DNA from: an uncultured Halobacteriovorax sp.
GTDB lineage: Bacteria > Bdellovibrionota > Bacteriovoracia > Bacteriovoracales > Bacteriovoracaceae
Length of the DNA stretch: 64,000 nt
Direction of reading: 5' to 3'
Assembly (NCBI GenBank): GCA_913061265.1
Contig: CAJXVS010000003.1
Span: 310,001 to 374,000 of the forward strand
The notes beneath the pieces are model-generated. The model was not told the DNA's origin. It did no database searches and was given only the letters and a program-made list of their open reading frames with translations. Below are positions 21,839 to 25,324 of the stretch, piece by piece (position 1 is the stretch's first letter; each line of letters begins with the position of its first letter). A program made the translations under genes and the position numbers.

Positions 21839-22045
21839 ATGAAGCCTGTATTGGAAATTAATAATACCTGTATTTCTTGTGATAACTGCCGATTAATTTG
21901 TCCGGAAAATGCAGTCCTTAAGAACGGCGATGAATACCGTATTGAGAGCTGGAGCTGCACTCTGTGTCAGCTCTGCGTTGAAGTATGTCCTATCGATTGT
22001 ATAAAAGTGGTTGAAGTAGATAGTTCTGACGAATTTATTAACTAG
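21839..22045 (+). CDS. small ferredoxin with two [4Fe-4S] motifs
   Basis: This 68-residue protein has CISCDNCRLICP (about 12-23) and CTLCQLCVEVCP (about 41-52), the two motifs of a 2[4Fe-4S] bacterial ferredoxin. It should carry electrons in the cytoplasm. It stands alone, so its partners are unknown. There is no ribosome-binding site, and a TATAAT lies 7 bases before the ATG, so a leaderless mRNA is likely. Its stop overlaps the convergent murU gene by 8 bases. Confidence 0.9.
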   Translation: MKPVLEINNTCISCDNCRLICPENAVLKNGDEYRIESWSCTLCQLCVEVCPIDCIKVVEVDSSDEFIN

Positions 22046-22910
22046 ACTCTATGACTCCATTTATTTTAAAGATCTTACCTTGATCTAAAATAATCTCTCC
22101 ATCTTTGGCTTCTTGCGAGATATCTTGTGAAAAATTTAAGCCCTTTCCTTTTAGATAATTAAACTTACTAGAGGTTTTTATTAACTCTATAAGAGAATTT
22201 GTTTTTCCTTTATCGAGAAGGTCCTTGGTCAAGAAGCAAAGGTCATAATATTCACTAAGCTTTCCGAAGTCGAAGTACTCACCCATTAATACTTCCTTAA
22301 CTTTTACCTTCATGTTTTTATAGTTTGCTACTGAATTGAAAAATGAAACTGGCTTATCATCAAAATCTTGCTTCTTTACAGATAATAAAGATAGCCCAGA
22401 GTAAGTAGAAAAAGACTCTTCCTCAACAAGCTTATTTTTGGTTATCTCTTCGAGGTAACCTTCGTTTCCTATGCTTAGCTTATTATATCCCTTTTCTTTT
22501 TCAACACTCAAACCAAACAAAGTAACAGGGTTAAGTCCTAAGGAATCTACTGAATCTTTGAAATAACTCTTATCGAAGAAATAAAATTGATCTGCATTAT
22601 TAATAACAAGAGGTTCTTCGAAGAGGTTAAATCTTTTACAAATATTTAATATTCCTCCACCTTGATCTAGTAATTCAGGCTCATAGACAATGTTTACCTC
22701 ATTGCTACTTAAATTTTCGAGTTGTTTATAGAGATGGTGGCTATTTAAAAATATAGTTTCAACCCCAAATTGTTCTTTAAGAAATAGAAGTTGGATTTCT
22801 AAGAATGTTAAGCCAAAAAAAGGCCACATCGGCTTTGCTAATTTCTCACCGATAGGACCCATTCGAGTTCCTTTACCAGCGGCTAGTACAATTGCTTTTT
22901 TAACTAGCAT
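22038..22910 (-). CDS. murU: sugar-1-phosphate nucleotidyltransferase, probable MurNAc-1-P uridylyltransferase
   Basis: This 290-residue protein is a nucleotidyltransferase with the N-terminal motif LAAGKGTRM (10-18), KPMWP and later NNADQFYF (about 98-105) for the metal site. On family features alone it could be any hexose-1-P uridylyltransferase. Its start overlaps the amgK gene by 11 bases, and the AmgK-MurU pair is the known Gram-negative route for MurNAc: AmgK makes MurNAc alpha-1-P and MurU makes UDP-MurNAc, by-passing de novo synthesis. The C-terminal 70 residues are longer than in Pseudomonas MurU (about 223 residues in all) and may be a small extra domain. Confidence 0.8.
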   Translation of the reverse strand: MLVKKAIVLAAGKGTRMGPIGEKLAKPMWPFFGLTFLEIQLLFLKEQFGVETIFLNSHHLYKQLENLSSNEVNIVYEPELLDQGGGILNICKRFNLFEEPLVINNADQFYFFDKSYFKDSVDSLGLNPVTLFGLSVEKEKGYNKLSIGNEGYLEEITKNKLVEEESFSTYSGLSLLSVKKQDFDDKPVSFFNSVANYKNMKVKVKEVLMGEYFDFGKLSEYYDLCFLTKDLLDKGKTNSLIELIKTSSKFNYLKGKGLNFSQDISQEAKDGEIILDQGKIFKINGVIESS

Positions 22911-23898
22911 AATAGAATTTTGCGAGGGTTAACTTTAGTTCCATGTATTGATCATACTTAGATAAGAGGGACAGTATTCTTTCAAAAGACCTCCCAATGA
23001 ATTTCAAGTATCGACTATCTCCTCTCACATTATAGATCATAGAGAAGCTGCCTATTGCTTTGTAGAGTCTTTGAATGGCCATAAAATCATAGTTCTTTTC
23101 AAAATTTTCTAACGATATACTAGAATTCGATTTATAATATTTAATAAGCTCATCTTTAACGTCTGTTTCAACAAAGAAATAGCAATCTTCAAGAAGGCTT
23201 ACTAAATCATATTGAGGAATACCAAGCCTTGCATCTTGAAAGTCGATGATAACGGGCTTGCCATTTTTCATCATAATATTCCGACTATGAAAGTCTCTAT
23301 GTGTTACACACCAAGGCCCTCTATCAAGATACTTACAAATACTAGTAAAGGACTGATCCACTAAATTAACTCTTTGATCTTCTGGTGACACGCCCAGGAG
23401 CTTAATCAAAAAATTGGCGTTCGTTACCCTAGTTTCATCTAGTAACTTAGCCGTATCAAATCTAAGTTTTGAAAAAGGCGCATCCTTGGATTCATCAAAT
23501 TTGATATTGTGAATCTTTAAAAGTTCATCCATAACTGGAAGATATAAGTTTTTTACATCTTCATTTGACCTGGCTTGGCCTAGCTCTTCTAAGAAAGTCA
23601 TATTCCCAAGGTCTTCTTGAACGATAAACCCTTTATTCCTATCTAGGTAATTGATTTCTGGAACTCTAATGCATTCATTACTAAAGGCTTCTTGAACTAT
23701 CTCGAAAGTATATTTTTCATTATTTTGAGTAGGGTCATCTAAGCAAATAACAAAGGATTCATTTTCTTGTTTAACTCTAAAATACCTTCTCGTTGAAGCA
23801 TCACCTGTTAGCTTTTCAACATCTATTGTTTCTTTGGAAAGGCCCGAGTCTTTAAATAAACTTTCTATGAATAGCCTTTCTGTTTCTTCTGGTTTCAT
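22900..23898 (-). CDS. amgK: anomeric sugar kinase, probable MurNAc/GlcNAc kinase
   Basis: This 332-residue protein is an aminoglycoside-phosphotransferase-fold kinase with the AmgK-type phosphate loop TGDASTRRYFR (31-41), catalytic loop HRDFHSRN (200-207) and metal motif IDFQDAR (218-224). The GDAS.RRYFR and DFQDA..G..YDL patterns separate AmgK from drug-resistance kinases. It phosphorylates MurNAc (or GlcNAc) at C1 for peptidoglycan recycling. It overlaps murU by 11 bases and the pseudo-M48 lipoprotein gene by 4 bases, so the order LysM, pseudo-M48, AmgK, MurU is one tightly packed unit. In a predator it could also use prey wall sugars; this is inference. Confidence 0.87.
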   Translation of the reverse strand: MKPEETERLFIESLFKDSGLSKETIDVEKLTGDASTRRYFRVKQENESFVICLDDPTQNNEKYTFEIVQEAFSNECIRVPEINYLDRNKGFIVQEDLGNMTFLEELGQARSNEDVKNLYLPVMDELLKIHNIKFDESKDAPFSKLRFDTAKLLDETRVTNANFLIKLLGVSPEDQRVNLVDQSFTSICKYLDRGPWCVTHRDFHSRNIMMKNGKPVIIDFQDARLGIPQYDLVSLLEDCYFFVETDVKDELIKYYKSNSSISLENFEKNYDFMAIQRLYKAIGSFSMIYNVRGDSRYLKFIGRSFERILSLLSKYDQYMELKLTLAKFYYAS

Positions 23899-24695
23899 AA
23901 AAGTGACCTTTGTAATAGATAAAAACCTCGTGAGGAATTTGTTTCTGTATTCTCAGAGTCTATTTGTTTCTTTCCTACCTCTAAAGCTAGAAAGCTTTTA
24001 AATAAAAACTCCTCCCTAATCCTTGCATGAGATGTTCCTAATTGAATAGAGAACTCAAGGCTGTTTTTGTTTTGCATCTGAAGCCAGTTTAAAACTGCAT
24101 ACGGATCATAACCGGATCTCTTTAAAAGAAAGTAGGTCCATTTCAAAGATTCAACTCTTACTTCTATAGGGAGCTTATATAAAGAGAGCATTTTCTTTGT
24201 ATTCAAATAACCTACAGGTATTAGAATTTTTTTCTCATATAGTTCTTTATGAACTCTATAGATTTCAGTAGCAATAAGTGAGACAAAAAGGTTTTCACTT
24301 TTTAGATATTTTTTAATCAAGGTATCACTAAAGAAAAACCTCCCACTTGGTAAACTAAAATAAAAAGGTAGGGGGGATTTGATTATATGAAAAATCGGTT
24401 TTATATCTTTCTTAAGAATCAATTCATTATTTACAACAATTCTTTTGTAGATTTCTCTTAAATAGTCTTGGTTCTTTTTCGAAATTCTTCTTTCCTGAAT
24501 TTTGGGGCTTTTCAAGTAATCTTTCGCTAAATGTTCGAAGTGATTTATATAATCTATACGATTAACAGAGAAATTATCCTGGATTTCAAGATAGCGGCTA
24601 TTCTTACTCGCACATCCATTAAAGGACATTGTGATTATTAGTAGGAATAAAAAAGCCCTCTTGTTGAGGGCTCTATATAAGTTAAAGGTATTCAT
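23895..24695 (-). CDS. lipoprotein with degenerate M48 peptidase domain
   Basis: This 266-residue protein has a lipoprotein signal ending SFNGC, so the mature N-terminus is C28. The rest follows the M48 (BepA/YcaL-type) pattern: a strand pair FYFSLPSGRFFFS (111-123) like the family's nAFalPgG.i, a helix where HExxH should be, but with TEIYR (143-147), and a helix ending SGYDP (194-198) as in RaGYDP. Both zinc-binding His residues are lost, so peptidase activity is not expected. The start at 24695 is 2 bases after the lysM stop and has no clear Shine-Dalgarno sequence, which suggests coupled translation. A terminator-like hairpin lies in its signal-peptide codons. Confidence 0.75.
   Translation of the reverse strand: MNTFNLYRALNKRAFLFLLIITMSFNGCASKNSRYLEIQDNFSVNRIDYINHFEHLAKDYLKSPKIQERRISKKNQDYLREIYKRIVVNNELILKKDIKPIFHIIKSPLPFYFSLPSGRFFFSDTLIKKYLKSENLFVSLIATEIYRVHKELYEKKILIPVGYLNTKKMLSLYKLPIEVRVESLKWTYFLLKRSGYDPYAVLNWLQMQNKNSLEFSIQLGTSHARIREEFLFKSFLALEVGKKQIDSENTETNSSRGFYLLQRSLL
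24649..24672 (-). terminator. terminator-like hairpin inside the start of the pseudo-M48 gene
   Basis: On the minus strand AGCCCTC, loop AACAA, GAGGGCT is followed by a run of six T in all (24654-24649), a good intrinsic terminator. It lies 26-49 bases after the lysM stop but also within codons 8-16 of the pseudo-M48 gene. It could end most lysM transcripts and let some pass on to amgK-murU, perhaps depending on translation. Confidence 0.7.
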
Positions 24696-24697
24696 AA

Positions 24698-25324
24698 TTA
24701 TTCAGAAGCTACATCTCTTTCAGGCACATAGTATAGAGTAAACCCTGCAAAGATCAAATTCGCATCGTGAATCATTGGACGGTTGTTTTCATATAGTAAC
24801 TTCCATTTTGTGGCAGTTCCATACTTATCATTTGAGATTGTCCCAAGTGTTTCACCATTTTGAATTAAATGAGGAAGACCAGCTGGACTCCAAACAAACT
24901 TCTCTGAAGGCTCACTATACTTAAGTGAAGCACCTTCAACTAAGCTATCCATAGATGGATTCATATCTTTTAGTGTTTTCCACTTTCTGTAATCACCATA
25001 AATCTTAAAAGCAATTAGCATCATGGTATCGCCTCTTTGAACTGTATAATCACCTACAGCGTCAGTCATCGATATACTTGTCGCGTTATCAGCTCCATCC
25101 ATAATCACTGTTTCATCTGTCGCCAGCATCTCTGTTGCTTCAGAATCTGCGGATTCTACAGATAATTCGAGATCTTCCTCATCAGAGTCGACGATAAAAT
25201 CAGATTCATCCTCCATCTCTAGAGCTGCATCTTCAGCCTTATTAGCGGCCGCTTTCTTCTTGTTATTTGAACAAGAGACCAAAGCGAAAATTGAAATAAA
25301 AAATAGCACTTTTAAAAGCTTCAT
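24698..25324 (-). CDS. LysM-domain lipoprotein
   Basis: This 208-residue protein begins with a lipoprotein signal (FISIFALVSC, C18), followed by a very acidic linker (about 30-90). A clear LysM domain follows (about 92-140, starting GDYTVQRGDTMMLIAFKIYGD), and then a second LysM-like unit (about 150-200, HLIQNGETLGTISNDKYG to FAGFTLYYVP). LysM binds the glycan chains of peptidoglycan, so this is an envelope protein anchored by lipid. It has a strong ribosome-binding site (AAGGAG). It is the first gene of the unit that leads to pseudo-M48, amgK and murU. Confidence 0.88.
   Translation of the reverse strand: MKLLKVLFFISIFALVSCSNNKKKAAANKAEDAALEMEDESDFIVDSDEEDLELSVESADSEATEMLATDETVIMDGADNATSISMTDAVGDYTVQRGDTMMLIAFKIYGDYRKWKTLKDMNPSMDSLVEGASLKYSEPSEKFVWSPAGLPHLIQNGETLGTISNDKYGTATKWKLLYENNRPMIHDANLIFAGFTLYYVPERDVASE

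Follow-up and report, generated by a model that had tools for sequence, protein, structure and literature searches.

Our analysis suggests that a hairpin and T-run written into the first codons of a lipoprotein gene on the minus strand of the window, i.e. the whole stretch of 64,000 nucleotides analysed, are probably the intrinsic terminator of the preceding lysM gene, that the next gene has come to overlap this terminator in several lineages, and that partial termination here would set the ratio between the gene products. In minus-strand order, the junction comprises lysM (24698..25324), which encodes a LysM-domain lipoprotein and the 3' end of which would be marked by the terminator; the lipoprotein gene with the terminator in its signal-peptide codons (23895..24695), the product of which is weakly M48-like and has no HExxH; an AmgK-like sugar kinase gene (22900..23898; 147.6 bits against a curated cut-off of 550), which overlaps the end of the lipoprotein gene; and a MurU-like nucleotidyltransferase gene (22038..22910; 48.1 bits against a curated cut-off of 250). 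AmgK and MurU are the best matches for the latter two genes, and the neighbours named in an earlier note on this DNA are thus confirmed, with both of these matches below the curated cut-offs. The gap between lysM and the lipoprotein gene is two bases, bringing the stop of the former and the start of the latter close together (TAATTATG). The lipoprotein ATG at 24695 is without a Shine-Dalgarno-like motif and lies 24 nt ahead of the GC stem. A later start codon in the window was considered and rejected, as none 3' of the hairpin leaves a signal peptide. The hairpin has to be read through for the lipoprotein gene to be transcribed, since no start codon 3' of it in the window is usable, and the lipoprotein can be made from read-through RNA only.

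The minus strand at 24674-24652 reads AGAGCCCTC-AACAA-GAGGGCTTT, followed by TTTATTCC, and RNA folding returned as the strongest minus-strand structure there a 9-bp extended stem with a loop of 5 (24652..24674). The core of this hairpin, GCCCTC-AACAA-GAGGGC, occupies 24671-24655, and the U-tract of six T after the GC stem occupies 24649..24654. The 7-bp core AGCCCTC/GAGGGCT with six T (24654-24649) described in the earlier note is exact in the sequence, and the coordinates agree with its placement inside codons 8-16 of the ORF at 23895-24695 and 26 bases past the lysM end (ORF end at 24698 versus 24672). The lipoprotein N-terminus is MNTFNLY-RALNKRAFL-FLLIITMSFNGC; codons 8-16 hold AGAGCCCTC-AACAA-GAGGGCTTT-TTTATT, and the six-T run is also part of the codons with which the hydrophobic core begins (the last base of A14, F15, and L16), supporting the proposal that the form of a terminator doubles as signal-peptide codons. 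With a U-rich tract immediately behind its GC-rich hairpin, the element fits an intrinsic terminator on the minus strand only. A plus-strand terminator was rejected because the hairpin lacks a T-run in that orientation and does not mark the end of any gene on the plus strand. A simple terminator scan found seven sites in 10 kb versus 6.3 in shuffles and would not by itself be evidence of non-chance. That the hairpin is more than chance follows from its exact stem (0.01 expected per window), from its conservation in place at 93 of 116 junctions, and from comparison with synonymous recodings (p=0.002 for the window's own hairpin).

We compared the junction across the 116 relatives of the Halobacteriovorax family with enough DNA upstream of the lipoprotein gene. 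In all 116, lysM is the direct upstream neighbour, and the order lysM-lipoprotein-amgK is conserved among the relatives; the terminator, present in place at 93 junctions, accordingly lies between co-directional neighbours of a conserved cluster, as an operon-internal terminator does. It is embedded in the following gene's signal-peptide codons at 41 junctions, lies in the gap before the start codon at 44, and is borderline at eight; in several of the eight, the ATG comes after the T-run and is closer to the Cys than the rule used allows. Across these classes, the GC stem follows the lysM stop at a median of 28 nt, with an sd of 6.7; the distance from the terminator to the lipobox Cys of the next gene has an sd of 20.7, and that to its start codon an sd of 36. 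Hairpin energies and T-runs are alike whether or not a copy is embedded, and nearly all copies have 6-8 T among the eight bases past the last GC pair. The hairpin is most simply taken as the terminator of lysM, because its position follows the lysM stop rather than the downstream gene and the same stem is recurrent at gene ends in the genome (see below). By the rule used, 23 of the 116 genomes are without the terminator, and an imperfect hairpin is present in only one of the 23, indicating that the terminator is not essential to the gene pair. On a tree built from lysM and the mature lipoprotein, the embedded state requires 9-11 changes, at least four of them forced by well-supported branches; because the tree is unrooted, gains and losses of embedding are indistinguishable. 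Members of the largest embedded clade have an interrupted T-run, and termination efficiency may therefore differ in that clade.

Two further arrangements were seen among the relatives. L022 and most of L083-L113 (genus code g24, many species) have a different stem (AAACCCTCGC/GCGGGGGTTT), and their lipoprotein start is mostly a GTG or ATG within the lysM end, ~23-32 nt before the end of the stop codon. The junctions L032, L033, L035, L037, L040, L047, L063, L079, and L117 are among ~12 with the start codon 4-9 nt after the T-run; because the 3' arm of the hairpin (AAGG, GAGG or GGAG) is the sole Shine-Dalgarno-like motif in these relatives, one stem may serve there as both terminator and ribosome-binding site.

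We examined selection on base pairing by recoding the signal-peptide codons of each embedded genome synonymously 1000 times with local codon use. Forty of the 41 embedded hairpins pair far better than their recodings (p<0.01), where the individual p-values are optimistic because the recoded set was picked for having the hairpin; 40 such p-values among 116 genomes is nevertheless far beyond chance. Control stretches from the mature region gave a comparable hairpin in 0 of 41 cases. Covariation was assessed in an alignment of 20 sequences from the largest embedded clade, including L088, which failed the terminator rule. In this alignment, 93.8% of cells are standard pairs (40-59% paired in slid-register controls), five pairs changed on both sides, and the covariation score was reached by 0 of 500 shuffles. 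L088 keeps the hairpin with compensatory changes and has a poor T-run, and the stem may, therefore, have a use besides termination there. The check on relatives that the earlier note had proposed, for pairing kept with compensatory changes, thus found both, in the recodings and in the 20-sequence clade, and loss of pairing in close relatives, which that note regarded as speaking against it, did not occur in the two same-genus genomes. As judged from these alignments and recodings, selection on pairing maintains the hairpin, the distance of which to the lysM stop is almost constant.

Within the genome, the stem GCCCTC/GAGGGC occurs at nine sites versus none for the reversed control, and the other eight copies each lie just 3' of a gene, mostly with a T-run. 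In 1.2 Mb of the genome, surveyed with crude gene calls and a crude signal-peptide rule, four of 391 tight co-directional gene pairs have a terminator-like hairpin in the first codons of the next gene, and all four hairpins precede signal-peptide-like starts (4/126 versus 0/265; Fisher p 0.01), the window junction having the cleanest stem and T-run of the four. The three others, all outside the window (G000:C3:403639, G000:C7:142302, and G000:C2:101598), lie in signal-peptide-like codons shortly past the upstream stop and have weaker T-runs; G000:C3:403639 follows a gene resembling gyrA by its N-terminus.

In this lineage and several others, the reading frame of the next gene begins upstream of the proposed terminator, the bases of which thereby also encode the last part of the n-region and the first part of the hydrophobic core in the signal peptide. 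In our working model, most transcripts would end at the terminator and yield lysM mRNA, and a minority would read through into the lipoprotein gene. The same minority would carry amgK and murU too, except if these two are transcribed from a separate promoter, which may lie inside the lipoprotein gene. The outcome would be a set ratio with much LysM protein and little of the rest. Because the codons of the next gene include the terminator, some read-through is expected, and the sequence shows that any mRNA carrying the whole downstream lipoprotein gene has to extend across the putative terminator. The terminated lysM RNA would carry the start of the next gene without a stop codon. A Shine-Dalgarno-like motif is missing at 40 of the 41 embedded start codons and present at 54% of long genes in the genome versus 11% at a control position; its lack would fit weak or stop-coupled initiation, which would limit wasteful translation of the non-stop lysM RNA. 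For an engineered terminated non-stop RNA of a like kind in E. coli, upstream expression was down by about half (PMC4824070).

The earlier note had instead suggested that a ribosome starting on the lipoprotein ORF opens the hairpin, with downstream transcription depending on translation or secretion of the lipoprotein. An ATG 24 nt upstream of the GC stem means that an elongating ribosome would cover the stem, and the proximity of the lysM stop to the lipoprotein start would allow a lysM ribosome to restart; however, the start is without a Shine-Dalgarno-like motif for fast initiation, and the terminator is kept at like strength before the start codon in 44 relatives and most of the eight borderline ones, where it is not translated by the lipoprotein gene, while its position follows the lysM stop. 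Nor is there a competing antiterminator fold, as no strong upstream structure formed with the 3' arm left out (z +0.68), and a search of Rfam returned only sub-threshold leader matches (Phe_leader with 22.5 bits versus 55; Trp_leader with 21.6 versus 41). Thus, neither the mutually exclusive antiterminator of a leader-peptide attenuator nor, given the 44 relatives, a translated stretch conserved with the terminator was found. In E. coli, translation cost a terminator 30 bp past an AUG only ~10% of its efficiency because at that point the ribosomes still lagged behind RNA polymerase, and a ribosome at a stop codon no longer disturbs a terminator >27 nt away (PMC4824070); the stop-to-stem distance of ~28 nt in the family matches this non-disturbing distance, with the caveat that the values come from another organism. 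We conclude that opening of the hairpin by lipoprotein translation or secretion is unsupported and consider it quite improbable. Coupling would be conceivable only as a later gain in the embedded lineages, in which initiation at the lipoprotein start or a restarting lysM ribosome would alter termination a few codons on and so make AmgK and MurU supply depend on the translation of an envelope lipoprotein; we give this version, too, only a slim chance.

Two other explanations bear on the same observations. Stem-loops within operons can stabilise upstream segments, and the hairpin might accordingly, instead of ending transcription, shield the lysM mRNA at its 3' end once a longer transcript has been cleaved, an idea with which the conserved pairing and the stem kept by paired changes in L088 despite its poor T-run agree. 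The 6-8 T in the eight bases after the last GC pair of nearly all copies would, however, be unneeded for stability, and the genome has this stem repeatedly as a gene-end signal, in most cases with a T-run; we therefore regard a stability or processing hairpin as unlikely. Alternatively, signal-peptide codons of the KRAFF type could happen to form a hairpin, since signal peptides are T-rich and T-runs come easily, and all four tight pairs with such a structure in 1.2 Mb precede a signal-peptide-like gene. That chance alone accounts for the hairpin is very hard to believe, given that synonymous recodings almost never yield it, that it covaries in the 20-sequence clade, and that its distance to the lysM stop is nearly fixed across classes.

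The lipoprotein downstream of the terminator belongs to a family present in 125 of 129 genomes of the Halobacteriovorax family and in all 73 of good quality. Pfam gave no match for the window lipoprotein, and an M48 match was obtained in one of 20 relatives (E 0.083). The single M48 structure match of the profile, 3c37 at E 0.27, ranks second to the gallate decarboxylase 6w54 at E 0.13, and the best Foldseek matches, 3c37 followed by BepA, derive from a low-confidence structure model (pLDDT 48.5; predicted from three sequences). The HExxH zinc motif is absent in all 20 aligned relatives, in which a Glu is the sole invariant residue of the equivalent stretch. These matches are weak evidence for the label "pseudo-M48", and the family may be related to the M48/BepA type without being catalytic.

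If the hairpin is indeed lysM's terminator, the junction is a natural, family-wide case of one DNA stretch under two selections, as terminator and as signal peptide, for which the relatives with the terminator outside the coding region provide built-in controls. It would also illustrate that a reading frame can repeatedly come to run through a terminator, possibly because GAGGGC-TTTTTT reads (K)R-A-F-F in one frame, the basic-to-hydrophobic step that a signal peptide needs, and that the genes of an apparent single operon (lysM, lipoprotein, amgK, murU) may differ greatly in mRNA levels. The kind of element is already known, and its conserved embedding in signal-peptide codons, of which we found no description in a small literature sample, is a variant. 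Operon-internal terminators in Clostridia, with efficiencies of 20.7-96.1%, set the level of a first-placed extracellular protein against those of later genes (PMC9045158). The ABC importer operons of Ruminiclostridium cellulolyticum resemble the lysM junction in having the terminator right after the gene for the first-placed extracellular protein and in partial read-through, which is inferred here; the stem-loops analysed there lie in intergenic regions after the first gene (PMC9045158), whereas at 41 of the 116 lysM junctions the terminator sits among the codons of the gene that follows. Closer in placement is tR2 in the E. coli construct W48, which lies after an upstream stop and 30 bp past the AUG of a second ORF and works almost unhindered by translation (PMC4824070). 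W48 is engineered, whereas the terminator at the lysM junction is natural, conserved, and must also encode a working signal peptide. Leader-peptide attenuators of the pyrBI and trp type likewise place a terminator in or just past a short translated stretch, but at the lysM junction there is no separate leader peptide, no alternative antiterminator was found, and translation over the terminator yields the N-terminus of a full-length lipoprotein.
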